64,000 nucleotides of DNA from Arachis hypogaea (Eukaryota > Streptophyta > Magnoliopsida > Fabales > Fabaceae). The translations under genes and the position numbers were made by a program. The stretch covers positions 107,611,363-107,675,362 of the forward strand of contig NC_092046.1 of NCBI RefSeq assembly GCF_003086295.3, in the 5' to 3' direction. Below, piece after piece: positions 7,666-60,913 of this stretch (positions are counted from its first letter, which is position 1; each line of letters starts with the position of its first letter). The notes under the pieces are model-generated. The model had not been told where the DNA came from. It saw only the letters and a program-made list of their open reading frames with translations, and did not search any database.

Positions 7666-7683
7666 TGGCACCGTTGTCGGGGA
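7666..7683 (+). other. Primer-binding site of B (tRNA-Asp type)
   Basis: TGGCACCGTTGTCGGGGA follows the LTR end by six bases. It differs at two positions from TGGCGCCGTTGCCGGGGA, the complement of the 3' end of plant tRNA-Asp that Athila-type elements use. Confidence 0.8.
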
Positions 7684-9226: not shown

Positions 9227-10897
9227 TGATAAAGAGAATTTATCATTAATCTAGATTTTCACAAAATAGAATTCCGTTGTTGAAAGTATAGTCTAGACTA
9301 ACAATTGATTTCCCAAATCAAATGTTTAAATTCAAATCAAATAACCGAGATCAAGAGTACTTCAACCTCGGGTCGTTCTCCCTAGGACGTAATCGGGAGT
9401 GTTTCTCTTTCGGTTGCTAAGAGGACAAAAGGGGTTTTTCAATCAAAGAATAAAAGATTAAAAGAACTTAATAAATAAAAATAATTAAGCAATGATCAAA
9501 ATTGGGAATTAATGTAAGTAAAGAGAAAACAGGATCAAAACTAGTGAAAATGCTATGAATGCAATAAAGAGCCTTGACTTGGGAATGAAAATCTAAGAAT
9601 CCTATCATTGCCATAACCACAACTATGATAATTATGATGAGTCAATCTCACCTAATCAACCTCAACCATCAAGGAGTAAGTCAAGCAAGCATAATTGACC
9701 TTAATCCATAAGTCCTAGCTAACTTACCAAACTAGTTGATAAAAGGCTAGCGTCAATGGAAACAAGAGTCAACTAACTACCCAAGAATTACCACTAAATG
9801 TCGGACATTATGACTCTAGTATCCTAGGAACTCAAACCACAAGCCAAGGTGGAAAAATCTACTCAAAATCTAAGGTTGGCATTTTCACAAACAACTTGTG
9901 TGCATAAAAGTAAAACATGGGAAATTGTAAAGGAAAATGGAAAACTATAACCAACTATCAACAAAACCAATCATAAACAAGCAATCAAACATAAAGGAAG
10001 CATGAAACATAAAATTCATTGATCAAAATACCAAGAAAAAAATTGAAAATATGAACAAGTAACTTGAACCAAAGGAAATGAAAGTAAAGACAATGTAATT
10101 AAAGAGTAATTAAAGAGTACTTACAATTAAAGATGATCAAAATCCAAAATTAAGCTTGTTATAAAATGCTACATGAAAACTATATAAACCCTAGGAGAGC
10201 TCTCTACACTACACTACTCCTACTCCTAATACTATGAAAAACTTGTAAAAACTAAAATTAAAATGTGCTAAAGCCTTCTTTTTTCATACGTGTTGATTCT
10301 CCCTTTATATAGCACTTCAGTTCAGCAATTCAGCGTTCCAAAATGGGCCAAAAGCCCCCAAAATGTGTGCTACACGTGTTTCATTAATGAAATCACGTGT
10401 TGGGTCCTGTGCGGACGCACAGATGCGTGCGTCCGCACACTTTGCTGTTTTGGCTCCTGTGCGTATGCACAGGTACTCGTGCGCACGCACACATGGAAAT
10501 TTTTTCTTATGCGTACGCACGCAAGCTTGTGCGCACGCACACATGGAAATTATCACTTGTGCACACGAACGCAGGGCTGTGTGCCCGCACACTTTGCTGT
10601 GTGTGCTTTTCCTTGTTTTTCTTCATGTTTTCTCCCTTGTACATGCTTTCTTCCACTTTTGGCTATCCATTCTTGCCTCTAAGGCCTGAAATCACTCACA
10701 AACCATATCACAGCATCGAATGACATAAAAGTGGAATTAAAAATCAATAATCTAAGCATTAAAACGTATGTTTTCACATTTAGAATCAAATTAGGGATCA
10801 AACACAAAAGTATGCTATTTTGGTGCTTAAGTGTGAGTTCATGTGCTAGAATCCATTCAAATCAAGTCAAAATACATAAAAAAATATGGACTCATCA
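9227..10897 (-). mobile_element. Element X 3' LTR (antisense)
   Basis: On the plus strand it runs from TGATAAAGAGAATTTATC to ATGGACTCATCA. Its first 65 bp match the other X LTR at 16256-16320. Palindromes built on TGTGCGGACGCACA occupy about 10417-10600. On the minus strand GCTATATAAAG (10303-10313) is a good TATA box downstream of them. Translations of the palindrome cluster (CVRTHT-like) are not genes. Confidence 0.85.
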
Positions 10898-14995: not shown

Positions 14996-15044
14996 GGTGG
15001 GGTGTCTCCCACCTAGCACTTTGGTTAGATGTCCTAAGTTGGAC
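14996..15044 (-). other. Post-stop double hairpin of X
   Basis: Minus strand: GTCCAACTTAGGAC (15031-15044), then GGTGGG-AGACAC-CCCACC (14996-15013, 6-bp stem). The first starts 18 nt and the second 49 nt after the TAA at 15063-15065. The Y copy has the same 49-nt distance. Confidence 0.8.
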
Positions 15045-15062: not shown

Positions 15063-16127
15063 TTAGGGCGGCTTATGCTTCCACTCCTCCTTGAATCTCC
15101 AACCAAGTTTGCTATTGATTCGATCTTCAAGGTCCCAATTAGATTGTATCAAACTCATGAGAGATTTCAAGCTAGCACTTAGGATCCAACTTCGTTGACT
15201 CTTGAAATTAATTCCCGGATCCCATATTTGAGTTCCTCTATCACCATCGACATGCTTGCGCACTCCCTGGAATCTACTAAATTGACTCTTACACCAAAAT
15301 TGAGCTCCAAATGTTAAGTTAGCTCCTTTGATGAACTTTCCATTTTCTTGCCAATTAACATTCTTCTCTTCACTATCCAATACTCCAAGAGAGGTTTGAA
15401 GTTAACCATCCGTTTCTAAAACGGCATATTGATGTGGGGCTAGAAAGCTTAGTGGAGAATTCTTCACCCACTCAATTTGCTCTTGCACAAATGCTTTCAC
15501 CTATTGGCAACTAAAATCTTCCTCAACCTCCTTTGAATCTTCTTCATCATCACTCAAGTCAAAAATTGGGGGTTGTGTGAAGTCTACATCAACATCTCCT
15601 TCAAAATCTAATAATGAAGGTTCATGAAGGTCATAGAAGGAATTACCTAAGTTGGACAAAAAATCTTGAATGATGGAATCCTCTTGATCAATTCCTACCC
15701 ACTCTTCATTTATCTCCCTTTGCACTTCATGTTGTGACTTGACGTCTTCTTCTTGATTTTGCAATTCTTCTTTCACTCCACACTTTTCACTTGGTCCCAC
15801 GCATTCATCCATTAGAATTTCTTGCTTGTGGCATGAACACAATGAAGCTAAATGACCCAAAGCTTTTGCTAAGTTAGACATAACTTGCTCTTGCTTCTTC
15901 CGGAACTCTTGTTGTTCTTGAATGAGCATGAAAAGTACTTCTTGTGTGGCTTGATCCATATATGAAGATGAAGATTGAGGTGATAAAGGTTGACAATCAA
16001 ACTCATGAGGGTAAGGGTTTTGGCTTTGTATGTAGTGAGGAGATGGTGTGTAAGATTGGTGATTATAAAGGTAAGTGTTTGGGTTCCATTGGGGTCCATT
16101 ATGGTGATGGTGTGAAAAAGTCATCAA
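15063..16127 (-). pseudogene. Unrecognised gag-position protein of X, two stops
   Basis: A single minus-strand frame of about 355 codons, with TAG at about 15498 and TAA at about 15400. Order: a His/Asn/Tyr/Pro-rich start (FSHHHHNGPQWNPNTY), a helix-prone stretch around ATQEVLFMLIQEQQEFRKKQ, an acidic middle, then a C-terminal part with WVKNSPLSF, IWDPGI and a final WKHKPP. The C-terminal part aligns with the 498-aa ORF of Y (WVKFSSLTF, IWDPGI, YKHKPP). It begins soon after the primer site, where gag is expected, but I see no gag, zinc knuckle, protease or RT. Function unknown; the stops may be recent. Confidence 0.75.
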
Positions 16128-16233
16128 GAAAATATAAACAAAAACCTACTAGGAAAAGCAAACAAACAACCAAAAAGAGCTATTTACACTATTAACATAT
16201 TCATAACAACCAAAAGATATAACACCGTTTACA

Positions 16234-16321: not shown

Positions 16322-17867
16322 TGATGAGCGGATATTTTATATGCTTTTTGGGGTTAATTTCATATAGTTTTTAGTATGTTTTAGTTAGTTTTTAGTTTAT
16401 TTTCATTAGTTTCTAGGAAAAATTCATATTTCTAGACTTTACTATGAGTTTGTGTGTTTTTCTATAATTTCAGGTATTTTCTGGCAAAAATTGAGGGAGC
16501 TGAGCAAAAATCTGATTCAGGCTGAAAAAGAACTGCTGATGCTGTTGGATCCTGACCTCTCTACACTCGGAATAAAATTTCTAGAGCTACAAGAGTCCAA
16601 TTGACGCGTTTCCAATTGCGTTAGAAAGTAGACATTCAGAGGTTTCCAGCAATATATAATAGTCCATACTTTGCTCAAGGATAGATGACGTAAACTGGCG
16701 TTCAACGCCAGTTCCATGTTGCAGTCTGGCGTCCAGCGCCAGAAACACGTTACAAGTTGGAGTTCAACGCCAGAAATAGGTTACAGCCTGGCGTTGAACG
16801 CCCAAAACAGCCCAGGCACGTGAGAAGCTTTAGTCTCAGCCCCAGCACACACCAAGTGGGCCCCAAAAGTGGATTTCTACACTATCTATCATAGTTTACT
16901 CATTTTCTGTAAACCTAGGTTACTAGTTTAGTATTTAAACAACTTTTAGAGATTTATTTTACATCTCATAACATTTTAGATCTGAATTTTGTACTCTTTG
17001 ACAGCATGAGTCTCTAAACTCCATTGTTGGCGGTGAAGAGCTCTGTTGTGTCTCGATGAATTAATGCAAGTATTTCTGTTTTCCATTCAAACATGCGTGT
17101 TCCTATCTAAGATATCCATTCACACTTCAACATGAATGTAATGAAAGTGACAATCATCATCATTCCCCCACGAACGCGTACCTGACAACCACTTCCGTTC
17201 ACCGTAGAATGAATGAATATCTCTTGGATCTCTTAATCAGAATCTTCGTGGTATAAGCTAGATTGATGGCAGCATTCAAGAGAATCCGGAAAGTCTAAAC
17301 CTTGTCTGTGGTATTCCGAGTAGGATTCAAGGATTGAATGACTGTGACGAGCTTCAAACTCGCGAGTGATGGGCGTAGTGACAGACGCAAAAGGATAGTA
17401 AATCCTATTCCGGTACGATTGAGAACCTGCAGATGATTAGCCGTGCGGTGACAGCGCACCTGGACCTTTTTACTGGAAGGATGGATGGTAGCCATTGACA
17501 ACGGTGATCCACTAACACATAGCTTGCCATAGGAGGACGTGCGTGCGTGAATCAGGAAATAGAGGAAAGCAGAATTTCAGAAGACAAAGCATCTCCAAAA
17601 CTCCAACATATTCTCCATTACTGCATACAAGTATAATTTGTGTTCCGCCCTTCTTACTTTTTACAATTCAAATTAAGAATTATTATTGATATTATATCCT
17701 GACTAAGAGTTACGAGATAACCATAGCTTGCTTCAAGCCAACAATCTCCGTGGGATCGACCCTTACTCACGTAAGGTATTACTTGGACGACCCAGTGCAC
17801 TTGCTGGTTAGTTGTTCGAAGTTGTAAGAGAGTAATGTGAACATTGACATTACAATTTCGTGCACCA
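16322..17867 (+). mobile_element. Element D 5' LTR
   Basis: It begins TGATGAGCGGATATTTTA and ends TTTCGTGCACCA, 1,546 bp, against 1,547 bp for the 3' LTR at 26905-28451. The two look almost identical by eye, suggesting a recent insertion. Palindromes (GGCGTTCAACGCC and variants) are at about 16697-16803. Candidate TATA-like TATTTAAA lies at 16932-16939. The upstream block around AATTGCGTTAGAAAGTAGAC and AATATATAAT is shared with the Y family. Confidence 0.92.
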
Positions 17868-17873
17868 AGTTTT

Positions 17874-22565: not shown

Positions 22566-23588
22566 TGTGGTTTCTACTGGCCTACACTTTACAGAGATTC
22601 CAGAGAGTTTGTACATAACTGTGACAGTTGCCAGAGAGCTGGTAATTTGCCTCCAAGTTACGCCATGCCTCAACAAGGAATCTTGGAGATTGAGTTATTT
22701 GACGTATGGGGTATTGATTTCATGGGGCCTTTCCCACCATCATACTCAAACACTTATATTCTGGTGGCGGTTGACTATGTATCAAAGTGGGTAGAGGCCA
22801 TTGCCACACCTACTAATGATACTAAAACATTACTGAAGATCCTCCAGAAACATATATTTAGCAGGTTTGGTGTCTCTAGGGTACTAATCAGTGATGGGGG
22901 CACTCACTTCTGCAACAAACAGCTTTACTCTGCCATGGTCCGGTATGGGATTCGCCATAAGGTGGCAACTCCATATCATCCACAGACAAATGGGCAAGCT
23001 GAAGTCTCTAACAGAGAACTAAAAAGAATCCTGGAACGGACTGTAAGCACCCGAAGAAAGGATTGGGCACGAAGCTTGGATGATGCTCTGTGGGCTTACA
23101 GAATAGCATTCAAGACTCCCATAGGGACCTCTCCTTACCAACTTGTGTATGGTAAGGCTTGTCACCTGCCCGTGGAACTGGAACATAAGGCCTACTGGGT
23201 AACCAGATTCCTTAACTTTGATGCCAAATTAGCTGGAGAGAAAAGATTGCTCCAGCTGAATGAGCTAGAGGAATTCAGATTCACTGCTTTCAAAAATGCC
23301 AAGCTTTACAAAGAGAAATAAAAAAGGTGGCATGATAGAAAGCTGTCATCTAGAATCTTTGAACCAGGACAAAAGGTTCTGTTGTTTAACTCTAGGCTCA
23401 GGCTATTTCCCGGGAAACTGAAGTCCCGGTGGAGAGGACCATATGTGATTACAAGTGTATCACCATATGGTTATGTGGAGCTTCAAGATATTGATTCTGA
23501 TAAGAAGTTCATTGTTAATGGACAGAGAATCAAGCACTATCTTGAAGGCAATGTTGAGCAAGAGTGCTCAAGGCTGAGGCTAGATTAA
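22566..23588 (+). pseudogene. pol: Integrase core and C-terminal part of D, one internal stop
   Basis: The frame continues from the previous entry. The DDE core shows [23 protein letters not shown] and [20 protein letters not shown] at 23319-23321 separates the core from the C-terminal module with [15 protein letters not shown] (GPY/F type). No chromodomain is visible, as expected for Athila-type elements. Integrase joins element cDNA to the chromosome; this copy is broken but the catalytic residues are still readable. Confidence 0.88.
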
Positions 23589-23600
23589 AAACTCAGCAAG

Positions 23601-23647
23601 GTCCAGCTAAAGACAATAAAGAAGCGCTTGCTAGGAGGCAACCCAGC
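23601..23647 (+). other. Post-stop double hairpin of D
   Basis: GTCCAGCTAAAGAC (23601-23614, stem GTC/GAC with an AGCT-type loop), then GCTAGG-AGGCAA-CCCAGC (23630-23647, five of six pairs). They start 12 and 41 nt after the pol stop at 23586-23588. Spacing is identical in G. Confidence 0.8.
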
Positions 23648-24618: not shown

Positions 24619-24654
24619 TTGCTTGAGGACAAGTAATCCTCTAAGTTTGGTGTG
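24619..24654 (+). other. Internal GAGGAC-loop hairpin and AAGTTTGGTG tract of D
   Basis: TTGCTT-GAGGAC-AAGTAA (one G-T pair) at 24619-24636, then AAGTTTGGTGTG at 24643-24654, 36 bp before the ORF3 start. This repeats the hairpin plus tract at the 3' end of D. Confidence 0.78.
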
Positions 24655-26904: not shown

Positions 26905-28451
26905 TGATGAACGGATATTTTATACGCTTTTTGGGGTTAATTTCATATAGTTTTTAGTATGCTTTAGTTAGTTTTTAGTTTATTTTCATTAGTTACTAGG
27001 CGAAATTCATATTTCTGGACTTTACTATGGGTTTGTGTATTTTTCTGTAATTTCAGATATTTTCTGGCTGAAATTGAGGAAGCTGAGCAAAAATCTGATT
27101 CAGGCTGAAAAAGGACTGCTGATACTGTTGGATCCTGACCTCTCTGCACTCGGAATGGAATTTCTGGAGCTACATAAGTCCAATTGACGCTCTTCCAATT
27201 GCGTTGGAAAGTAGACATCCAGGGCTTTCCAGCAATATATAATAGTTCATACTTTGCTCAAGGATAGATGACGTAAACTGGCGTTCAACGCCAGTTCCAT
27301 GTTGCAGTCTGGCGTCCAGCGCCAGAAACACGTTACAAGTTGGAGTTCAACGCTAGAAACAGGTTACAGCCTGGCGTTGAACACCCAAAATAGCCTAGGC
27401 ACGTGAGAAGCTTTAGTCTCAGCCCCAGCACACACCAAGTGGGCCCCAGAAATGGATTTCTGCACTATCTATCATAGTTTACTCATTTTCTGTAAACCTA
27501 GGTTACTAGTTTAGTATTTAAACAACTTTTAGAGATTTATTTTACATCTCATAACATTTTAGATCTGAATTTTGTACTCTTTGACAGCATGAGTCTCTAA
27601 ACTCCATTGTTGGGGGTGAAGAGCTCTGCTGTGTCTCGATGAATTAATGCAAGTATTTCTATTTTCCATTCAAACATGCGTGTTCCTATCTAAGATATCC
27701 ATTCGCACTTCAACATGAATGTGATGAACGTGACAATCATCATCATTCCCCCACGAACACGTGCCTGACAACCACTTTCGTTCACCGTAGAATGAATGAA
27801 TATCTCTTGGATCTCTTAATCAGAATCTTCGTGGTATAAGCTAGATTGATGGCAGCATTCAAGAGAATCCGGAAAGTCTAAACCTTGTCTGTGGTATTCC
27901 GAGTAGGATTCAAGGATTGAATGACTGTGAAGAGCTTCAAACAAGCGAGTGCTGGGCGTAGTGACAGACGCAAAAGGATAGTAAATCCCATTCCGGTACG
28001 ATTGAGAACCTGCAGATGATTAGTCGTGCGGTGACAGCGCACCTGGACCCTTTTCACTGGAAGGATGGATGGTAGCCATTGACAACGGTGATCCACCAAC
28101 ACACAGCTTGCCATAGGAGGACGTGCGTGTGTGAATCAGGAAACAGAGGAAAGCAGAATTTCAGAAGACAAAGCATATCCAAAACTCCAACATATTCTCC
28201 ATTACTGCATACAAGTATAATTTGTGTTCCGCCCTTCTTACTTTTTACAATTCAAATTAAGAATTATTATTGATATTATATCTTGACTAAGAGTTACGAG
28301 ATAACCATAGCTTGCTTCAAGCCAACAATCTCCGTGAGATCGACCCTTACTCACGTAAGGTATTACTTGGACGACCTAGTGCACTTGCTGGTTAGTTGTG
28401 CGAAGTTGTAAGAGAGTAATGTGAACATTGACATCACAATTTCGTGCACCA
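26905..28451 (+). mobile_element. Element D 3' LTR
   Basis: It begins TGATGAACGGATATTTTA and ends CGTGCACCA. The target repeat ATAGT (28452-28456) matches 16317-16321, so D is a complete insertion with both ends present. Confidence 0.92.
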
Positions 28452-28663
28452 ATAGTCTAGAACAACAATTGATTCCCCAAATCAAATGTTTAAATTCAAA
28501 TCAAATAACTGAGATCAAGAGTACTTCAACCTCGAGTCGTTCTCCCTAGGACGCAATCGGGAGTGTTCTCTTTCGGTTGTTAAGAGGACAAAAGGGGTTT
28601 TGTAATCAAAGAACAAAAGATTAAAAGAACTTAAGAAATAAAAAGAACTAAGCAATGATAAAA
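28452..28663 (-). mobile_element. Element X 5' LTR, continuation
   Basis: Starting with the D target repeat, it follows the X 3' LTR from CTAGAACAACAATTGATT to AGCAATGAT, then stops abruptly. The remaining inner two thirds are absent. Confidence 0.82.
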
Positions 28664-34245: not shown

Positions 34246-34282
34246 TGGTAATGGAAAAACAAAAAAGCTATGCTTTTACCAC

Positions 34283-34317
34283 ACCAAACTTAGAATATTG
34301 CTCGCCCTCGAGCAATA
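34283..34317 (-). other. Internal hairpin and AAGTTTGGTG tract of E
   Basis: Minus strand: TATTGCTC-GAGGGC-GAGCAATA (8-bp stem, 34296-34317), then AAGTTTGGTGTGG (34281-34293 region) ahead of ORF3. The loop varies from the usual GAGGAY. Confidence 0.75.
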
Positions 34318-35108: not shown

Positions 35109-35178
35109 ATTGGGTTGCCTCCCAACAAGCGCTTCTTTAATGTCAATAGCTTGACAGTGGGCTCTCATGGAGCCTCAC
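35109..35178 (-). other. Post-stop hairpins of E
   Basis: Minus strand order: GTGAGGCTC/GAGCCCAC (35157-35178, one bulge, enclosing a TGA), then TGTCAA-GCTA-TTGACA (35141-35156, 6-bp stem), then GTTGGG-AGGCAA-CCCAAT (35109-35126). The last begins 38 nt after the TGA at 35165-35167. Confidence 0.8.
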
Positions 35179-35576
35179 AGATGTGCAGAGCTTTGTTGAG
35201 ACTCTCCAACACCAAACTTAGAGTTTGGATATGGGGGTTCAACACCAAACTTAGAGTTTGGTTGTGGCCTCCCAACACCAAACTTAGAGTTTGACTGTGG
35301 GGGCTCTGGTTGACTCTGCTTTGAGAAAAGCTTTTCAAGCTTCCTCTCCATGGTTGCAGAGGGAGATCCTTGAGTTTTGAATACAAGGGAGTTCTCATTC
35401 TATTGAAGGACTATTTAACCTCTGTCAATATCAATCACAGCTCTTGCTGTGGCCAGGAAAGGTCTTCCTAGGATGATGGATTCATCCTCTTCCTTTCCAG
35501 TATCCAGGACTATGAAATCAGCAGGGATGTAAAGGCCCTCAACCTTTACTAACACGTCCTCTACTTGTCCATAAGA
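35168..35576 (-). pseudogene. Protease C-terminal remainder of E
   Basis: After the TAG at about 35574 the gag-protease frame continues with VEDVLVKVEGLYIPADFIVL and a conserved IILGRPFLATARAVIDID, then breaks again. A unit encoding PNSKFGV is repeated three times (35205-35295); its DNA contains AAGTTTGGTGTTG, the polypurine-tract sequence of the element. It is followed directly by the post-stop hairpins: no RT, RNase H or integrase is present. Confidence 0.78.
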
Positions 35577-37364
35577 CTATCTTCTTGAGCTGTCTGCCAT
35601 CTCTAGTGAGATTTTAGCAGCTTGCACCCCATAGATTCCCAGTTTCTCTATTACAGAGAGGGGCATGAGGTTTATTCCTGAACCAAGGTCACACAGAGCC
35701 TTAAGGATCATGGTGCCTATGGTACAGGGTATTATGAACTTTCCAGGATCCTGTCTCTTCTGAGGCAATGTCAGTTGGTCCAGATCACTTAGTTCATTGA
35801 TGAACAAGGGAGGTTCAACTTCCCAATCATCAATGCCAAACAATTTGGCATTCAGCTTCATGATTGCACCAAGAAACTTGGCAGTTTGCTCTTCAGTGAC
35901 ATCCTCATTCTCTTCAGAAGAGGAATACTCATCAGAGCTCATGAAGGGCATAAGGAGGTTCAATGGAATCTCTATGGTCTCTAGATGAGCCTCAGAGTCC
36001 TTTGGTTCCTCAGAGGGAAGCTCCTTATTGATCACTGGACGTCCCAGGAGGTCCTCCTCCTTGGGATTCACGTCCTCTCCTCTCCTCAGAGGTTCGGCCA
36101 TGGCGCTTATGTCAATGGCCTTGCACTCTCCTTTTGGGTTCTCTTCTGTATTGCTTGGGAGAGTACTGGGAGGGGTTTCAGTGTTCCTTTTACTCAGCTG
36201 GCCCACTTGTGCTTCCAGATTTCTAATGGAAGACCTTGTTTCATTCATGAAACTTACAGTGGCCTTAGATAGATCAGAGACTAGATTTGCTAAATTAGAA
36301 GCATTTTGTTCAGAGTTCTCTGTCTGTTGCTGAGTTGATGATGGAAAAGGCTTGCTATTGCTAAACCTGTTTCTTCCACCATTATTAAAGCCTTGTTGAG
36401 GCTTTTGATCCTTCCATGAGAAATTTGGATGATTTCTCCATGTTGAGTTATAGGTGTTTCCATAAGGTTCACCTAAGTAATTTACCTCTGCTATTGCAGG
36501 GTTCTCAGGATCATAAGCTTCTTCTTCAGAAGAAGCCTCTTGAGTACTGTTGGATGCAGCTTGCATTCCATGCAGACTCTGAGAGATCATATTGACTTGC
36601 TGAGTCAATATTTTATTCTGAGCCAATATGGCATTCAGAGTATCAACTTCAAGAACTCCCTTCTTCATAGGCGTCCCATTACTCACAGGATTCCTTTCAG
36701 AAGTGTACATGAACTGGTTATTAGCAACCATGTCAATGAGTTCTTGAGCTTCTGCAGGCGTTTTCTTTAGGTGAATGGATCCACCTGCAGAAGTGTCCAG
36801 TGACATCTTTGATAGCTCAGATAAACCATCATAGAATATATCCAGGATGGTCCATTCTGAAAGCATGTCAGAAGGACACTTTTTGGTCAACTGTTTGTAT
36901 CTTTCCCAAGCTTCATAGAGAGATTCACCTTCTTTCTGTCTGAAGGTTTGAACATCAGCTCTAAGCTTGCTCAGCTTTTGAGGAGGAAAGTACTTGGCTA
37001 AGAAAGCCGTGACCAGCTTATCCCAAGAGTTCAGGCTGTCTTTGGGTTGAGAATCCAACCATAATCTAGCTCTGTCTCGTACAGCAAAAGGGAAAAGCAT
37101 GAGCCTGTAGACTTCAGGATCTACTCCATTAGTCTTAACAGTATCACATATCTGCAAGAATTCAGTTAAGAACTGAAAAGGATCTTCAGATGGAAGTCCA
37201 TGAAACTTGCAGTTCTGCTGCATCAGAGAAACTAATTGAGGTTTCAGCTCAAAGTTGTTTGCTCCAATGGCAGGAATGGAGATGCTTCTTCCATATAAAT
37301 TGGAATTAGGTGTAGTGAAGTCACCAAGCATCTTCCTTATATTATTATTATTTTCGGCTGCCAT
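35577..37364 (-). pseudogene. gag: gag-protease of E, stopped inside the protease
   Basis: An open frame of 595 codons. The gag domain is clear (DRARLWLDSQPKDSLNSW, FPPQKLSKLRADVQTFRQKE, LYEAWERYKQLTKKCPSDML); then an Asn/Gly/Gln-rich region, a short coiled coil (SSIRNLEAQVGQLSKR), an acidic linker and the protease active site ALCDLGSGINLMP. It ends at a TAG after the SSRR residues where F continues with KQAYGL. No zinc knuckle was seen. The start is the ATG overlapping the MSR-type upstream frame. Pol is absent from the element, so any RT must come from another element. Confidence 0.82.
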
Positions 37365-47803: not shown

Positions 47804-49944
47804 ATGGCCGAACCCAATAACAATGGTGGAGATGCAAGGAAGATGCTTGGTGACTTTATTGCACCCTCTTCTGACTTCTGTGGAAGGAGCATCTCAATTC
47901 CTGCAATTGGAGCAAATAACTTTGAGCTTAATCCTCAATTAGTTTCTCTGATGCAGCAGAATTGCAAGTTTCATGGACTTCCATTGGAAGATCCTCATCA
48001 GTTCTTAGCTGAATTCTTACAAATCTGTGACACTGTTAAGACCAATGGGGTCAATCCTGAGGTCTACAGACTTATGCTTTTTCCTTTTGTTGTAAGAGAC
48101 AGAGCTAGGACATGGTTGGACTCACAACCTAAAGATATCCTGAACTCTTGGGAAAAGCTGGTCAATACTTTCTTGGCCAAATTCTTTGCACCTCAAAAAT
48201 TGAGCAAGCTTAGAGTGGAAGTCCAAACCTTCAGACAGAAGGAAGGTGAATCCCTCTATGAAACTTGGAAAAGATACAAGAAATTGATCAGAAGGTGTCC
48301 TTTTGACATGTTTTCAGAATGGAGCATCATATGTATACTCTATGATGGTCTGTCTGAATTGTCCAAGATATCATTGGAAAACTCTACTAGAGGATCTCTT
48401 CATCTGAAGAAGACTCCTGCAGAAGCCCAGGAACTCATTGAAATGATTGCAAATAACCAGTTCATGTACTCTTCTGAAGGGAATCCTGTGAAAATGGGAC
48501 AACTCAGAAGAAAGGAGTTCTTGAGATTGATACTCTGAATGCAATATTGGCTCAGAACAAAATATTAACTCAGCAAGTCAATATGATTTCTCAGAGTCTG
48601 TCTGGAATGCAAGCTGTATCAGGCAGTACTAAGGAAGCTTCTTCTGAAGAAGAAGCCTATGACCTTGAGAATCCTGGAATGAAAGAGGTGAATTACATGG
48701 CAGAATCCTATGGAAATACCTATAATCCTTCATGGAGGAATCATCCTAATCTCTCATGGAAGGATCAACAGAAGCCTAATCAAGGCTTCAATAATAATAA
48801 TGGTGGGAGAACACTGTTTGGCAATAACAAACCTTTTCCATCATCTTCTCAGCAACAGACAGAGAATTCTAAGTAGAGTCACTCTGACTTAGCAACTGTA
48901 GTCTCTGATCTATCTAAGACCACTCTCAGTTTCATGACTGAAACAAGGTCCTCCATTAGAAATTTGGAGGCACAAGTGGGTCAGCTGAGTAAAAGAGTTA
49001 CTGAACTCTCTCCTAGTACTCTCCTAAGCAATACAGAAGAGAATCCAAAGAGAGAGTGCAAAGCCATCCACACGTCCAACATGTCTGAACCTGTAGAGGA
49101 GGGAAAGGCAGTGATTTCCAGTGAGGAAGACCTCAATGGACATCCACTGGCCTCCAAGGAGTTCCCTAATAAGAAACCAAAGAAATCTGAGACTCATATA
49201 GAGACCATACAGATTCAACTAAACTTACTGTTGCCATTCATGAGCTCTGATGAGTATTCTTCCTCTGAAGAGGATGAAGATATTATTGAAGAGCAAGTTG
49301 CTCAATATCTAGGAGAAATCATGAAGCTGAATGCCAAGTTAATTGGTAATGAGACATGGGAGGATGAACCCCCATTGCTCATCAATAAACTGAATGATCT
49401 GGTTTAACTGAAATTACCTAAGAAGAAACATGATCCTGGAAAGTTCTTAATACCTTGTACCATAGGCACCATGACCTTTGAGAAGGCTCTGTGTCACCTG
49501 GGGTCAGGGATAAACCTCATGCCCCTCTCTGTAATGGAGAAATTGGGGATCTTTGAGGTACAAGCTACAAGAATCGCACTAGAGATGGCAGACAATTCAA
49601 GGAAACAGGCTTATGGACTTGTAGAGGATGTCTTAGTGAAGGTTGAAGGCCTTTACATCCCTGCTGATTTCATAATCCTAGACACTGGGAAGGATGAAGA
49701 TGAATCCATCATCCTTGGAAGACCCTTCCTAGCCACAGCAAGAGCTGTGATTGATGTGGACAGAGGAGAGTTAGTCCTTCAATTGAATGAGGACTACCTT
49801 ATGTTTAAGGCTCAAGGATCTTCTTCTATAACCATGGAGAGGAAGCATGAAAAGCTTCTCTCAATACAGAGTCAAACAGAGCCCCCACACTCAACTTCTA
49901 AGTTTCGTGTTGGGAGGACAACATCAAGCTCTGAGTCTCTGTGA
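47804..49944 (+). pseudogene. gag: gag-protease of F, one frameshift and two stops
   Basis: Gag: DRARTWLDSQPKDILNSWEK, APQKLSKLRVEVQTFRQKEG, LYETWKRYKKLIRRCPFDMF. A frameshift lies near 48500. Then the MISQSLSGMQ helix region and SSIRNLEAQVGQLSKR follow with a TAG at 48874-48876 and a TAA at 49405-49407. The protease has CHLGSGINLMP, where the active-site Asp of CDLGS is replaced by His, and IILGRPFLATARAVIDVD. The final TGA is followed directly by the post-stop hairpins; RT, RNase H and integrase are absent, as in E. Confidence 0.85.
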
Positions 49945-50011
49945 AGCTCTCTAAGAGCTTCACTGTCAAGCTATTGACATTAAAGAAGCGCTTATTGGGA
50001 GGCAACCTAAT
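49941..50011 (+). other. Post-stop hairpins of F
   Basis: GTGAAGCTCT-CTA-AGAGCTTCAC (49941-49963, perfect 10-bp stem enclosing the TGA stop), TGTCAA-GCTA-TTGACA (49964-49979), and ATTGGG-AGGCAA-CCTAAT (49994-50011, one G-T pair). Confidence 0.82.
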
Positions 50012-50760: not shown

Positions 50761-50796
50761 TTGCTCGAGGATGAGCAACCATTCTAAGTTTGGTGT
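50761..50796 (+). other. Internal GAGGAT-loop hairpin and AAGTTTGGTG tract of F
   Basis: TTGCTC-GAGGAT-GAGCAA (50761-50778), then AAGTTTGGTGTGG, just upstream of the ORF3 start. Confidence 0.8.
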
Positions 50797-52709: not shown

Positions 52710-53882
52710 GATGAACCATATCTCTTTAAGAGATGTGCAGACGGAATAATCAGTAGGTGTGTTCCTAGAGAAGAAGCAAAGAAGATCCTATGGCATTGTC
52801 ATGGATCACAATATGGAGGACATTTCGGAGGTGAGCGAACAGCCACAAAGGTCCTCCAATGTGGCTTCTACTGGCCCACTCTCTATAAAGACTCCCGAGA
52901 ATTTGTTCGTAACTGTGACAGCTCCCAGAGAGCTGGTAATCTGCCTCATAGTTACGCCATGCCTCAGCAAGGGATCTTAGAGATTAAGTTGTTTGATGTA
53001 TGGGGTATTGACTTCATGGGGCCTTTCCCACCATTATACTCAAACACTTATATTCTGGTGGCAGTCGACTATGTATCCAAATGGGTAGAGGCCATTGCAA
53101 CACCCACCAATGATACTAAGATAGTGCTGAAGTTCCTCCAGAAACATATCTTCAGCAGGTTTGGTGTCCCTAGAGCACTAATCAGTGATGGGGGCACTCA
53201 CTTCTGCAACAAACAGCTTTACTCTGCTATGGTCCAGTATGGAATTAGCCACAAGGTGGCAACTCCATATCATCCACAGACAAATGGGCAAGCTGAAGTC
53301 TCTAATAGAGAACTAAAAAGAATCCTGGAATGGACTGTAAGTACCCGTAGAAAGGATTGGGCAAGAAGCTTAGATGATGCTCTGTGGGCTTACAGAACAG
53401 CATTCAAGACTCCTATAGGGACCTCTCCATACCAGCTTGTGTATGGTAAGGCCTGTCATCTGCCCGTGGAACTGGATCATAAGGCCTACTGGGTAACCAG
53501 ATTCCTAAACTTTGATGCCAAATTAGCTGGAGAAAAAAGAATGCTCCAGCTGAATGAGCTAGAGGAATTCAGACTCACTGCTTTCGAAAATGCCAAACTT
53601 TACAAAGAGAAAGCAAAAAGGTGGCATGACAAAAATCTATCATCTAGAGTCTTTGAACCAGGACAGAAGGTTCTGCTGTTTAACTCTAGGCTCAGGCTAT
53701 TCCCCGGGAAACTGAAATCCCGGTGGAGGGGACCATATGTGATTACAAGTGTGTCACCATATGGCTATGTAGAGCTTCAAGACATTGATTCTAATAAGAA
53801 GTTCATTGTTAATGGACAGACAATCAAGCATTATCTTGAAGGCAATGTTGAGCAAGAGTGCTCAAGGCTGAGGCTAGACTAA
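52710..53882 (+). pseudogene. pol: Integrase of G, open frame, zinc Cys lost
   Basis: The frame is open from 52710 to 53882, with the first in-frame ATG at 52959 (307 codons). Zinc region: [12 protein letters not shown] is present, but the CDSC pair reads CDSS ([10 protein letters not shown]), losing a metal ligand. The DDE core is intact: [39 protein letters not shown]. The C-terminal GPY/F module is complete ([15 protein letters not shown]). It lacks every upstream pol part, so it is a relic despite the long open frame. Confidence 0.82.
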
Positions 53883-53894
53883 AAGCTCAGCAAG

Positions 53895-53941
53895 GTCCAG
53901 CTAAAGACAATAAAGAAGCACTTGTTGGGAGGCAACCCAAT
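53895..53941 (+). other. Post-stop double hairpin of G
   Basis: GTCCAGCTAAAGAC (53895-53908) and GTTGGG-AGGCAA-CCCAAT (53924-53941), starting 12 and 41 nt after the TAA at 53880-53882. Confidence 0.82.
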
Positions 53942-55881: not shown

Positions 55882-57086
55882 TGATGAGCGGATAATTTAT
55901 ACGCTTTTTGGCATTATTTTTACATAGTTTTTAGTATGATTTAGTTAGTTTTTAATATATTTTTATTAGTTTTTAAATAAAAATTTCACTTCTGGACTTT
56001 ACTATGAGTTTGTGTATTTTTCTGTGATTTCAGGTAATTTCTGGCTGAAATTGAGGGACCTGAGCAAAAATCTGATTCAAATGCTGAAAAAGGACTGTAG
56101 ATGCTGTTGGATTCTGACCTCCCTGCACTCAAAGTGGATATTCTAGAGCTAGAGAAGTCTAAATGGCGCACTCTCAATTGAGTTAGAAAGTAGACATCCA
56201 GGGCTTTCCAGCAATATATAATAGTCCATACTTTGTTCAAGGATAAATGACGTAAACTGGCGTTCAACACCAGTCCCATGTTGTATTCTGGCATTAAACG
56301 CCAGAAATAGGTTAAAAGTTGGAGTTAAACGCCAGAAACAGGTTACAACCTGGAGTTTAACTCTAGAAACAGCCTAGGCACGTGTAAAGCTCAAGTCTCA
56401 GCCCCAGCACACACCAAGTGAGCCCCAAAAGTGGATTTCTGCACTATCTATCTTAGTTTACTCATTTTCTGTAAACCTAGGTTACTAGTTTAGTGTTTAA
56501 ACAAATTTTAGAGATTTATTTTGCAACTCATGACATTTTTCACGTTTTGACATTGTATCTCTATGGCATGAGTCTCTAAACTCCATTGTTGGGGGTGAGG
56601 AGCTCTGCTGTGTCTCGATGAATTAATGCAATTATTTCTGTTTTCTATTCAAACACGCTTGTTTCTATCTAAGATGTTCATTCGCACTTCAATATGATGA
56701 ATGTGATGATCCGTGACACTCATCAACATTCTCAATCTATGAATGCGTGCCTGACAACCACTTCCATTCTACCTTCTATTGAATGAGTATCTCTTGGGTT
56801 CCTTAATCAGAATCTTCATGGTATAAGCTAGAATCCATTGGCAGCATTCGTGAGAATCCGGAAAGTCTAAACCTTGTATGTGGTATTCTGAGTAGGATTC
56901 AGGGATTGAATGACTGTGACGAGCTTCAAACTCACAAGGATTGGGCGTAGTGACAGACGCAAAAGGATCAATGGATCCTATTCCAGCTTGAGTGAGAACC
57001 AACAGATGATTAGCCGTGCGGTGACAGCGCACCTGGACCATTTTCACTGAGAGGACGGATGGTAGCCATTGACAACGGTGATCCAC
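55882..57086 (+). mobile_element. Element G 3' LTR, front part
   Basis: TGATGAGCGGATAATTTATA to ACGGTGATCCAC, where Y is inserted; D's LTR continues ACTAACACATAGC at this point. The remainder should be past the window. Confidence 0.86.
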
Positions 57087-58515
57087 TGATAAACCACTAT
57101 TTTATGGTTTATCTTGTGCTCAATTGAGTGGATTTTATCAACTCTTTACCCACTTATTCATACTATTTGCATGAGTTTACATTCTCCTTCCTGATTTTGT
57201 TCTATGATTGAAAACATGCTTCTATGACCTTATATTTGCTAATATTAATCCTCTCTTATTACCATTAGATGCCTTGATATGTGTTTAAGTGTTTTCAGAG
57301 ATTACAGGGCAGGAATGGCTTGGAGGATGGAAAGGAAGCATGCAAAAGTGAAAGGAATACAGGAAACTGAAGGAAGTACTAAAGCTGTTCAACCTGACCT
57401 CCTAGCACTCAAACGACCATAACTTGAGCTACAGAGGTCCAAATGATGCGGTTCCAGTTGCGTTGGAAAGCTAACGTATGGGGCTTCGCAACAATATATA
57501 ATTTGTCATAGCTTCCCCGAAGCCAGGTGACGCGAACGCGTGGATCACGTGGATGCGTGACCTGGCAAAATCCCAATCCACGCTAACGCGTGGACGACGC
57601 TTCCGCGTCACTTTCCTGCGACCTTAACGTACCAGAAATTGCTGGGGGCGATTTTTGGGCTGTTTTTGACCCAGTTTTCAGCTCAGAACACATAGATTAG
57701 AGGCTATAAAGTGGGGGAATGCATCCATTCATAAACACGCTTATAATTTTAGGTTTTAGATGTAGTTTTAGAGAGAGAGGTTCTCTCCTCTCTCTTAGGA
57801 TTTATATTAGGATTAGGATTTCATCTTCTGCAATCACAGGTTCAATGTTCCTTTTATTTATTTTATCAATTTAGTTTATGAACTCTTTATGTTTCGATTA
57901 ATTTTCTTTTATTAATGCAATTAAGGTATTTCAGTTTATGATCGTTTTATTCTATTTATGAAAGCTTTTAATTTAATTTTGAATTTTCTCTTTTGGCTCT
58001 GGTTAAGTAATTGTTAACACTTGAGTTGTCAAACTTAGCAGTTGTTTAAATTGGCAGATTACTAATTGATCTAGATCGCTCTAAAGCTAGTCTTCCCACG
58101 GGGATTGACTAGGACTTGAGGATCAAGCTAATTAGTCCACTTGACTTAACTAAGTGGGATTAAAACCCAATTCTCATCACACCTGATAAGGATAACAAGG
58201 ATAGAAATTCCAAATTCTAATACCTTTCCAAGAGATTTTATTATTATTAATTTATTTTTTTGTCATTTAAATTACTTGCTCCTTATTTTAAAAACCCCAA
58301 TTTACAAAACTCATAACCAATAATAAGAACATACCTCCCTGCAATTCCTTGAGAAGACGACCCGAGGTTTAAATACTTCGGTTATCAATTTTAAAAGGGG
58401 TTTGTTACTTGTGACAACCAAAACATTTGTAAGAAATTACTTTTGTTGGTTTAGAAGCTATTCTTGCAACTGGAATTTATTCTGAATTCTAGACCACGCA
58501 AAAGACCTCTCTTCA
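57087..58515 (+). mobile_element. Element Y 5' LTR
   Basis: TGATAAACCACTATTTTATG to CCTCTCTTCA, 1,429 bp. Palindromes built on ACGCGAACGCGT and TCCACGCTAACGCGTGGA lie at about 57533-57610. CTATAAAG at 57704-57711 is a good TATA box just downstream. The preceding U3 block (GCGTTGGAAAGCTAACG, AATATATAAT) is shared with D-type LTRs. Confidence 0.9.
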
Positions 58516-59170: not shown

Positions 59171-60667
59171 ATGAACTCTCACCGCTTTGGCTATGAGTCT
59201 GGTTACAATTATGTTGCAGGAAGAGAAGATTACAATGAGAACAGGCATCAAGGTTGGAACAACCAAAAATGGGAGGAGCCACAAGGATTTGATCAACTCT
59301 TTTGGCAACAACCCCCTCCAATGCACTATAACCAACAACCATTCTGTGATGATGACTATGGTGGACCCCCTTGTAATTACCGACAAGCCCCATCATACGC
59401 CTATAAACCATCTCCTCAACACAGCTTTGAACCACCATACTCACAAGCCACCTACAACCATTCACCTCCATATGACCCTAACCCATATCCACCATACCAA
59501 CCACCCTATGAGCCAAATGAACCCTCCTATCCACCCCAAACCTCCATGGAAAAAGTACTTACCGATCTAAACTCTACTATACAAGCTCTCGTCGCCCAAA
59601 TCGGACCACCAAATACCTTCAACAATCAACCCTCAAGCTCTAGTGCACTTCCTTTTCAACCACAGAATGATCTCTCCATCCCATTACCACCATCCTTGGA
59701 AGAGCACCCACATCCATCAATCCAAGAGCAACATGATCCCAATGATGCTATTGACATGGAACAAGAGAGAAGGGATCATCTTCGTGAATCCATACTTCAT
59801 AAGGAGCTAGAGGAGGCCTTAAAGGTGAAGGTAGTAAAGACCCTTGAAGATGAAAGAATAGTTGAAAGGAGTTGTCATGGAAAGAAAATCATCAAGGATG
59901 AGTACGATTTTATATTAAAGCTACTGGACAAAGCAGTAATTATTAAAGAGGAAAAAGTGGTTGAAGACTTGCGAGATGTTGAACCTCCATGGGAAAGTGA
60001 AGACATAGAGCCTCCATCCAAGACGGTTGCATTTGATGTTGAGGAGGGTGTACAACCTCCAAGGCATACCCTGGTTGAAGACTTGGAAGAGGTTGAAATT
60101 GAAGAAGCTTACAAGGAGGTGGAAGTTGTCAGAGAAGAGCACAAGGGAGTGGAGCTCGCAAGTTCATTAGAAACACCTCCCCCAAGGCCATTACCGTCCA
60201 ACACAACATTTAAGTGGGTAAAATTCTCATCCTTGACCTTTACTTTCCCACTTGAATATAGACTACTAGAGAAGGATGGTCAGCTTAGAGCCCTTTATGG
60301 CATTAAGAGTAAGAGGAAGATGGTCAGTGGTAAGAATTGTCCTGCAAGGTTCATTATGGTTGGAAGCTTTAAGTTTAAACGCAAAGGTTGGTGTAGAGCT
60401 CAATTGAATGGGTCTGGGAAGTTGTTTGGACGCTTCAGTGAGAATTCTAAGGCTGAACCACCCGGATGGAATCATGATAATCAACTTGAAGACGGGTGTA
60501 GAAACAAGATTTGGGATCCAGGAATATATGAGGATCAATTTTGGGAGCTCAAAGCTTGTGAAGAACTCCATCAAAGCTTGAGGAATCTACTTGGTATTGA
60601 TAGAGCTTATTGGAAGTCCAAGCATTGGTGGAAGTTTCAGGATGAATACAAGCACAAGCCACCATAA
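59171..60667 (+). CDS. Intact 498-aa unrecognised protein in the gag position of Y
   Basis: An open frame of 498 codons. Residues 1-140 are Tyr/Pro/His/Asn-rich (YPPYQPPYEPNEPSYPP). A helix-prone segment follows (MEKVLTDLNSTIQALVAQI). Residues about 195-330 are Glu/Lys/Val-rich, likely coiled coil or disordered. The C-terminal 150 residues are more globular, with WVKFSSLTFTFPLEYRLLEK, an ARFIMVGSFKFKRKGWCRAQ stretch, IWDPGI and a closing YKHKPP. That last part aligns with the broken X protein. There is no zinc knuckle, protease, RT or integrase here or elsewhere in Y. Position after the primer site and leader suggests it replaces gag. Function unknown. Confidence 0.82.
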   Translation: MNSHRFGYESGYNYVAGREDYNENRHQGWNNQKWEEPQGFDQLFWQQPPPMHYNQQPFCDDDYGGPPCNYRQAPSYAYKPSPQHSFEPPYSQATYNHSPPYDPNPYPPYQPPYEPNEPSYPPQTSMEKVLTDLNSTIQALVAQIGPPNTFNNQPSSSSALPFQPQNDLSIPLPPSLEEHPHPSIQEQHDPNDAIDMEQERRDHLRESILHKELEEALKVKVVKTLEDERIVERSCHGKKIIKDEYDFILKLLDKAVIIKEEKVVEDLRDVEPPWESEDIEPPSKTVAFDVEEGVQPPRHTLVEDLEEVEIEEAYKEVEVVREEHKGVELASSLETPPPRPLPSNTTFKWVKFSSLTFTFPLEYRLLEKDGQLRALYGIKSKRKMVSGKNCPARFIMVGSFKFKRKGWCRAQLNGSGKLFGRFSENSKAEPPGWNHDNQLEDGCRNKIWDPGIYEDQFWELKACEELHQSLRNLLGIDRAYWKSKHWWKFQDEYKHKPP

Positions 60668-60684
60668 CAGGGAGCTCACCAAAT

Positions 60685-60734
60685 GTCCAACTTAAGGACT
60701 TTAACTAAAAGTGCCAGGTGGGAGACAACCCACC
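60685..60734 (+). other. Post-stop double hairpin of Y
   Basis: GTCC-AACTTAA-GGAC (60685-60699) and GGTGGG-AGACAA-CCCACC (60717-60734), 17 and 49 nt after the TAA at 60665-60667. Confidence 0.85.
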
Positions 60735-60913
60735 ATGGTATGATCGTTCCTTTTTTAATTATAATTACTTTTGTTTGTTTTTGAATTTTATTTCATTTCA
60801 TTGAACCTGTCATTACTCATAACATCTGCATATTGCATTCTGCATTTTGCACAAAAAAAAGCACGCACCGCATCACAAGTGCATTAGGAAAAAAAAGAAA
60901 TCAAACAGAGAGT

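Follow-up and report, generated by a model that had tools for sequence, protein, structure and literature searches.

A stop-anchored double hairpin in Athila-like retrotransposons of peanut and its possible role as a shield of full-length RNA

A nest of long terminal repeat (LTR) retrotransposons in the genome of peanut (Arachis hypogaea) carries six copies of a conserved double hairpin, set a short and regular distance behind the stop codon that ends the first long open reading frame (ORF). The window, that is, the whole stretch of 64,000 nucleotides (nt) that was analysed (NC_092046.1, positions 107,611,363 to 107,675,362), lies in contig C11, and its elements are designated D, E, F, G, Y and X. 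The stems of the hairpins change on both sides while the loop of hairpin 2 is kept, and the spacing from the stop codon is alike behind different proteins. We favour, with a probability of a little more than one in three, the reading that this double hairpin is a stop-proximal cis element of the full-length RNA, predicted by analogy to shield it against nonsense-mediated decay (NMD).

The six double hairpins were found where an earlier note on this DNA had placed them, in X (14996-15044), D (23601-23647), E (35109-35156), F (49964-50011), G (53895-53941) and Y (60685-60734). In Y, the first long ORF (59171..60667, plus strand) encodes an Arachis-type protein of 498 amino acids and ends with a TAA codon at 60665..60667. 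Hairpin 1 follows at 60685..60699 (GTCC/GGAC, 7-nt loop) and hairpin 2 at 60717..60734 (GGTGGG/CCCACC, loop AGACAA); behind it a U-rich tract can be read in the sequence and in the family profile (60735..60800). On the minus strand, X has its TAA codon at 15063..15065, hairpin 1 at 15031..15044 and hairpin 2 (GGTGGG/CCCACC, loop AGACAC) at 14996..15013. D, on the plus strand, combines a hairpin 1 with GTC/GAC pairing and a C.A mismatch at pair 4 (23601..23614) with a hairpin 2 carrying one A.C mismatch (GCTAGG/CCCAGC, 23630..23647). The minus-strand copy in E consists of TGTCAA/TTGACA (35141..35156) and GTTGGG/CCCAAT (35109..35126). The plus-strand elements F and G complete the set. In F, the TGA codon of the gag-pro frame (49942..49944) is followed by hairpin 1 (49964..49979) and by ATTGGG/CCTAAT (49994..50011). 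In G, the TAA codon of the integrase frame (53880..53882) precedes a hairpin 1 of the D type (53895..53908), with the same C.A mismatch at its fourth pair, and a hairpin 2 of the E/F type (GTTGGG/CCCAAT, 53924..53941).

A covariance model, of the kind that the earlier note had suggested, was built from 23 copies, of which the window supplied five (Y excluded), and was run with filters off. Its search of the window returned precisely these six pairs, every hairpin 2 being matched, with E values from 1e-20 to 8e-8; the next best match had an E value of 0.98. Y, outside the training set, scored 36.3 bits (E 8e-8). By itself, the loose core pattern does not reach significance in the 64-kb window (7 matches, 2.8 expected, 5 of 100 shuffles equal). 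The six window copies are not independent of one another, G being D-like upstream and E/F-like downstream. Since the energy z-scores of single copies range from -3.7 to +0.5 and are unconvincing alone, the case for structure rests on covariation.

For this purpose, 31 copies at most 90% identical to one another were retained, and 29 were aligned after leaving out L012, in which hairpin 1 is deleted, and L062. In this larger alignment, the claim that the stems vary on both sides with the loop kept was borne out, with covariation beyond that of shuffles. In hairpin 2, 97.1% of 174 cells are paired (80.0 +/- 1.8 when shuffled), 28 two-sided changes are counted (8.1 +/- 1.9 when shuffled) and the covariation score is 0.475 (0.120 when shuffled); on all three measures, none of 500 shuffles was as high. 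When the partner strand is slid by 1-3 columns, at most 48% of the cells are paired. Pair 2 occurs as UA (12), AU (8), GC (6) and CG (3), and pair 3 switches from UA to CG in the GTC family. Copies fetched by patterns fixing TGGG...CCCA are uninformative on pairs 3-6; those fetched with the stems left free are informative. Among the matches listed for such free stems, in counts made by eye that each concern mainly one family and leave pairs 4-6 fixed by the pattern, a C at the third left position goes with the right-hand G in 79 of 88 copies (9 do not have it) and none of the 12 copies with another base there has that G, while with a purine at the left of pair 2 the pair is kept in 91 of 100, mostly as CATGGG/CCCATG, and lost in 9. 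TATGGG is partnered by CCCATA or CCCATG. Compensated stems absent from the window are thus present in other copies (CAT/ATG, TAT/ATA, GTC/GAT).

Hairpin 1 was counted on 23 sequences, L004 and the Y-type rows except X being also omitted (the Y-type hairpin 1 has one extra loop base). Its cells are paired at 89.6% (shuffled 81.5 +/- 1.6), with 9 two-sided changes (shuffled 3.5 +/- 2.2), eight of which are between CG and UA at the outer pair, and its covariation score of 0.188 (shuffled 0.103) was reached by none of 500 shuffles. Two slid versions nearly attain this score (0.153 and 0.168), so that hairpin 1 rests on less than hairpin 2. Because the shuffles ignore relatedness, independent events are fewer than the cell counts. 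RNAalifold, given the same alignment and unprompted, predicts both hairpins minus the innermost pair of hairpin 1. Among the mismatches of hairpin 2, which are not independent, G.U (11) prevails over A.C (3). Together with the two-sided changes, this argues that the element acts single-stranded, most likely as sense RNA.

The second line of evidence is the place of the hairpins. It was assessed on 80 distinct loci, among them the six window copies, for which 400 nt or more of upstream sequence was available, by looking for an ORF of at least 100 codons ending no more than 150 nt before hairpin 2. Such an ORF is present in 56 of the 80, and in 50 of these its end lies 38-49 nt before hairpin 2, mostly at 41, 48 or 49 nt, compared with 49 of 3,700 random points in the same loci. 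The stop codons are TGA (39), TAA (13) and TAG (4). Enrichment behind stop codons, the absence of which the earlier note had named as a refutation, is therefore found. It was also correct that the signal tracks position and not the protein: the spacing is alike behind pol (ending in SKLRLE), behind gag-pro (HCSEHL), behind gag-pro with an integrase-like tail (KHYNPP, by eye) and behind the Arachis-type protein of X and Y (KHKPP). Read by eye, the distance from the stop to the start of hairpin 1 is 10-19 nt in D, X, Y, F and the loci L001 and L011. In L011 an integrase precedes hairpins of the X/Y type, so that X/Y and a pol-bearing element have one hairpin variant in common.

For the window itself, the statement that a long ORF precedes the hairpins in all six elements stands in part. 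Frames of at least 100 codons are open to the stop in Y (503 codons), X (112), F (178) and G (390), and such a frame is missing in D and E. In D, an earlier in-frame stop (23319-23321) leaves 88 codons open behind it, and the gag-pro frame of E ends at 35577, about 420 nt upstream of the hairpins. Both copies are broken. The spacing of 38 nt given for E likewise holds for one reading: an 81-codon stretch does end there, and a 74-codon stretch ends 48 nt before hairpin 2. In the family of E, the spacing is 48 nt in 20 of the 28 loci with an ORF and 38 nt in 3.

The hairpins also form an island of sequence identity. When 13 sequences from seven groups are compared without gaps and aligned on the loop of hairpin 2, the between-group identity is 93% for the loop and the next 4 nt, 82% for the preceding 10 nt and 60% for the 10 nt before those. 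From -300 to -51 and past +80, identity is 19-33%, the level of unrelated DNA; its higher value from +20 to +60 (33-53%) results from U-richness. Around the spacer (-60 to -31, ungapped) the families are 26-34% identical. As the spacer is hardly alignable and yet its length is kept, this length is read as constrained. The T share over the first 40 nt behind hairpin 2 is 0.40-0.71 in every family sampled, and past 100 nt it is 0.05-0.31, except in the CAT family (0.15-0.45), in a profile that includes double fetches.

The whole peanut genome (2.56 Gb) was searched with patterns covering the hairpin 2 core, the reversed pattern serving as control; hairpin 1 was seen in the copies that were read. 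The core TGGGAGRCAACCCA gives 35,504 + 35,299 = 70,803 copies on the two strands (control 0 + 5). With both stems free and linker and loop fixed, 22,890 + 22,775 = 45,665 copies are counted (control 0 + 0), and the X/Y-type pattern gives 6,990 + 6,860 (control 0 + 0). Reading of the first 48 fetched copies identified 47 as copies of the element and one (L009) as a chance match. Altogether, 128 loci were fetched. Five were left out of the counts, namely L009 as well as L014, L017, L042 and L127, which failed the linker or stem filter; the remaining 123 and the six window copies make 129 entries, 99 of them distinct, many places having been fetched twice. When the loop is left free and all else fixed, 10,415 copies are found, and by eye AGGCAA is the loop in 93 of 100 among the matches listed; these copies being of one family, this constancy says little about selection.

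What could such an element do? Its fixed place behind the stop favours an effect at or near the stop. Behind the hairpins of D, E, F, G and Y, the RNA continues for 1.5-3.3 kb plus the LTR, and a tail of such length is the kind that attracts NMD. A precedent exists in the Rous sarcoma virus (RSV) stability element (RSE), which, in the accessible part of the source, protects unspliced RNA from behind the gag stop, requires adjacency to this stop and works via a pyrimidine-tract protein (PMC4764554). The shield reading was adopted because of the long tail, the U-rich tract that follows the hairpins and the like place of the RSV element. In such a mechanism, hairpin 1, which starts 10-19 nt downstream of the stop, could remain folded next to the terminating ribosome. 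The linker and the loop (AGRCAA, with GGG/CCC as closing pairs) are both constant and have the look of protein contact sites. Together with pyrimidine-tract binders occupying the U-rich stretch, such a protein would hold UPF1 away from the kilobase 3′ tail made of the ORF3 region and the LTR. The full-length RNA could then serve both for translation and as the genome. Such a shield would be needed by non-autonomous relatives too, and this would account for their retention of stop and hairpins as one unit.

The likeness to the RSE concerns a retroelement RNA, a location directly behind the stop of the first long ORF, a long 3′ tail and pyrimidine-richness. According to the same partial source, however, the RSE is an element of 400 nt with CU-rich clusters bound by PTBP1 (PMC4764554), whereas the peanut element consists of two small hairpins with a near-constant loop within about 50 nt, then a U-rich tract, and belongs to a plant. 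The start of the 3′ untranslated region of turnip crinkle virus offers a plant system in which stop-proximal RNA resists NMD, but there, as far as the available text goes, it is the absence of structure that protects, and a stable hairpin abolishes the protection (PMC6277124). The readthrough structure of the same virus needs recoding, of which the peanut element gives no sign.

Several observations weigh against the shield. The most direct is this plant assay, in which a pyrimidine-rich unstructured stretch behind the viral stop conferred resistance and a stable hairpin at that place removed it (PMC6277124, seen in part); the peanut hairpins sit in the very zone of the assay, and the U-rich tract alone would fit. 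For the pyrimidine tract, where the RSE has CU clusters, the measure taken here is the T share. As to position, 24 of the 80 loci are without an ORF of the required length, and in the other 6 of 56 the stop lies at 20, 56 (twice), 67, 104 or 121 nt; we have taken these six as decayed. The constant spacing can also reflect common descent of the stop, as the protein ends KHKPP, KHYNPP and KHYDQPPP look alike. Two of the five covariation measures of hairpin 2 (pairs with a two-sided change, and further pair types) are not above shuffles, 91 and 158 of 500 being as high, and hairpin 1 is weak, its outer pair being missing in 5 of 23 sequences and its innermost pair in 5 of 23. Finally, all the fetched loci lie on contig C1, and one plant genome was searched.

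Next after the shield we rank packaging, or recognition between partners, because the non-autonomous elements keep the hairpin variant of their pol-bearing relatives. Gag or another protein of the autonomous element would bind the loops and linker and so admit both its own RNA and that of non-autonomous elements to the particle. X/Y and the integrase-bearing L011 have in common an AGACAM loop, a GGTGGG stem and an AAAGTGC linker; D-type elements and gag-pro elements of the E/F type have in common the AGGCAA loop and the AAAGAAGCGCTT linker. The hairpins are also kept by elements whose scanned ORFs showed neither reverse transcriptase nor integrase, and D, E, F, X and Y each have a tRNA-Asp-like primer site. 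A constant loop on changing stems is, besides, the usual look of a protein-bound hairpin. A packaging signal, however, has no tie to a stop codon, and still 50 of 56 loci preserve the spacing; common variants also follow from descent. From sequence, packaging is a possible role, though a doubtful one.

A different kind of role would link the hairpins to ORF3, the frame that follows in several of these elements. D, E and F have it some 0.7-1.1 kb downstream, and so do 36 of the 45 distinct loci that are not of the Y type. A spliced ORF3 mRNA could then have its regulated 3′ splice-site region in the hairpins and the U-rich tract, in the manner of retroviral env mRNA, and splice acceptors have been predicted for Athila and BAGY2 (PMC2829016, available in part). 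Copies of the E/F family repeatedly close the U-rich tract with an acceptor like TTTTCTGTAG/GTTGATG, and in 34 of 52 copies, counting double fetches, the first AG comes 41-46 nt after hairpin 2. X retains a weak trace of ORF3, 1.4 kb behind its hairpins (E 2e-5), and the gene model P0033 joins a Y-like protein to an ORF3-like one, the latter below the Pfam cut-off. The first AG nevertheless shifts between families, lying at 4 nt in the CAT family, at 4-42 in the GCT family and at 2-125 in the Y type, and Y-type elements give no ORF3 match in the stretches searched, although theirs could lie further off or be too diverged. Judged from the sequences, an acceptor for ORF3 would fit the E/F family, not the others, and splicing appears unlikely as the role of the island.

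The same observations bear on translation of ORF3, which had been put forward earlier as one role of the hairpins and which finds no support as a general one. Y keeps the hairpins, and tblastn finds no ORF3 in the 2,839 nt before its 3′ LTR; neither do any of the 29 distinct Y-type loci show one in the 1-1.5 kb searched. With ORF3 not detected in Y or in these 29 of 29 loci, against its presence in 36 of 45 others, it is unlikely to be the common reason for the hairpins. Some X/Y-type elements may carry a diverged ORF3 further off, the weak trace in X being a caveat here.

Nuclear export of the unspliced RNA, by analogy with the constitutive transport elements of simple retroviruses, would account for a position behind the coding region of an RNA that must exit the nucleus unspliced, as well as for a constant loop within a variable stem; it would have no need of a fixed distance from the stop, and we hold it to be quite unlikely. 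It is very unlikely that the island has no function at the stop and is merely a recombination joint for template switching by reverse transcriptase, kept by the exchange of modules. G does join a D-like pol to an E/F-like 3′ half. Its similarity to D extends as far as hairpin 2 (91.9% over 1,646 nt), that to E/F starts at hairpin 1 (78.6% over 468 nt), and the joint lies inside 53895-53939. The joint sequence, with a D-type hairpin 1 and an E/F-type hairpin 2 and one base off that of G, has 42 exact copies in the genome, all on C11-C20 and none on C1-C10, hence in one subgenome if contig numbers follow chromosome numbers. But a joint needs identity, and not paired stems with two-sided changes. 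Template switching at the island would nonetheless let coding modules swap before a common 3′ half.

Readthrough or reinitiation, yielding a C-terminal extension or a new ORF start, is scarcely credible: an ATG stands at the 3′ foot of hairpin 2 in several families and many X/Y-type stops are followed by CAR, but the phase in which the post-stop frame enters the hairpin varies from family to family and no peptide is common to them, so that readthrough is not supported, and the ATG is missing in GTC copies and in GCT copies other than D. A readthrough peptide was rejected on the ground of these phases, a protein search with the short read-through stretch having given no candidate, and so was the ATG as a start codon. 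A further candidate, the self-complementary linker AAGCGCTT as a dimer site, was rejected as well, as it is not kept in X/Y, L003, L004 and G.

From their domain order and primer site, the host elements were filed as Athila-like Ty3/gypsy elements. D has LTRs at 16322-17868 and 26905-28452 and contains gag and protease pieces, reverse transcriptase, RNase H, integrase and then ORF3 (PF20167). Its domains RVT_1, RT_RNaseH, H2C2 and rve come in this order; no extra RNase H family was detected in it at E 0.01, its frames being broken and one of the three D pieces in that scan having no match of any kind. An archaeal RNase H marks the Tat clade as opposed to Athila (PMC6317226, consulted in part), and a sunflower Athila element has partial similarity to PF20167, according to the portion seen of PMC11728184. 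E (minus strand; LTRs 41097-39430 and 31945-30289) carries gag-pro and ORF3, reverse transcriptase and integrase not being seen in its ORFs; F is likewise by DNA similarity. G, internally deleted, has its 3′ LTR at 55882-57087, and Y has LTRs at 57087-58482 and from 63574 on. The possible LTR of X, on the minus strand, is at 9314-10240. From the hairpins to the 3′ LTR, the distance is 2.8-3.3 kb for D, E and Y and 1.5-1.9 kb for F and G; for X it is about 4.7 kb if 9314-10240 is its LTR.

With a 17-letter query that we take to be the tRNA-Asp primer site, seven places with at most three mismatches were found in the window (0.01 expected): behind the 5′ LTRs of D, E, F and Y, on the remaining 5′ side of X (16235), in an X-like copy (29682) and at 7666. 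None was found in G, whose 5′ part is missing. A tRNA-Asp primer site is the rule for the Athila lineage in the part available of PMC1142308.

The protein of X and Y, also encoded at 15063-16145 (minus strand), has no Pfam match. The Y protein is matched by 41 proteins; the named ones come only from A. hypogaea, A. duranensis and Stylosanthes scabra, and the others are metagenome proteins. Two relatives, P0003 and P0020, themselves without a Pfam family, look fused to gag or protease pieces, by eye and from their source names, and the end KHKPP resembles the KHYNPP and KHYDQPPP of other families. The loci L001 (G000:C1:352992-356005) and L003 may be mentioned in this context. In L001 a gag-pro-like frame, which contains an in-frame stop, runs into a tail resembling an integrase C-terminus, and the end reads KHYNPP by eye; with neither reverse transcriptase nor integrase core in the stretch read, this type represents a further kind of non-autonomous element. 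Downstream of the usual stop and upstream of hairpin 1, copies of the gag-pro (E/F) family have one more small hairpin, GGCTC...GAGCC, for example at 35160-35174 (minus strand). The motif CTAAGTTTGGTGT occurs at 18 places in the window with one mismatch allowed (0.12 expected), for example at 24641-24653, 34281-34293, 35209-35287 and 50784-50796; its sites are on the gag side, before ORF3, before the stops of E and F and directly before the 3′ LTRs of D, E and G.

An Rfam scan of the window matched no family to the hairpins at gathering score. Its sole match is elsewhere, to snoR71 (36861-36968, plus strand, 40.6 bits for a gathering score of 40), antisense to the gag-pro frame of E and probably due to chance. 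In the literature searched, mostly in its freely readable part, no description of this element or of cis-acting RNA structures for this Ty3/gypsy lineage was found, although an earlier notice is possible; letter strings of the element met in papers are chance matches such as primers, none on plant retrotransposons, as judged from titles and the starts of abstracts. No relatives were found in viral contigs or prokaryote genomes, and six plasmid records with distant integrase-like matches (below 60% identity) are of no use. Among plant LTR retrotransposons, Sireviruses do have conserved non-coding secondary structure, in the form of inverted repeats, but they are Ty1/copia elements whose repeats, in the text available, sit at the gag/pol boundary or at the polypurine tract (PMC2829016), whereas the peanut hairpins lie 1.5-3.3 kb before the 3′ LTR of Ty3/gypsy elements. 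Diaspora, an Athila relative of soybean, has a tRNA-Asp primer site too, and its 128 bp between the pol stop and the polypurine tract are said to be membrane-like; by comparison, the tract behind the stop of G also reads, by eye, as hydrophobic residues. No hairpin is described for Diaspora in the part of the source at hand (PMC1142308), this comparison being one of descriptions only.

If the various observations are taken together, it may tentatively be imagined that the stop-anchored double hairpin constitutes a new RNA family, a modular "end of gene, keep this RNA" signal of plant Athila-type retroelements and the counterpart of the retroviral stability element. Template switching within the hairpins would allow unrelated proteins to be placed before it, and it would be one RNA passport for autonomous elements and their parasites alike, present about 70,000 times in a single crop genome. 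With natural variants in the tens of thousands, this covarying element lends itself readily to testing. As a stability element, it would reveal the way in which long-tailed transposon RNA evades decay in plants; as a packaging signal, it would account for the carrying along of the non-autonomous elements of peanut. Either way, it provides a landmark for the end of the first ORF in degraded copies.

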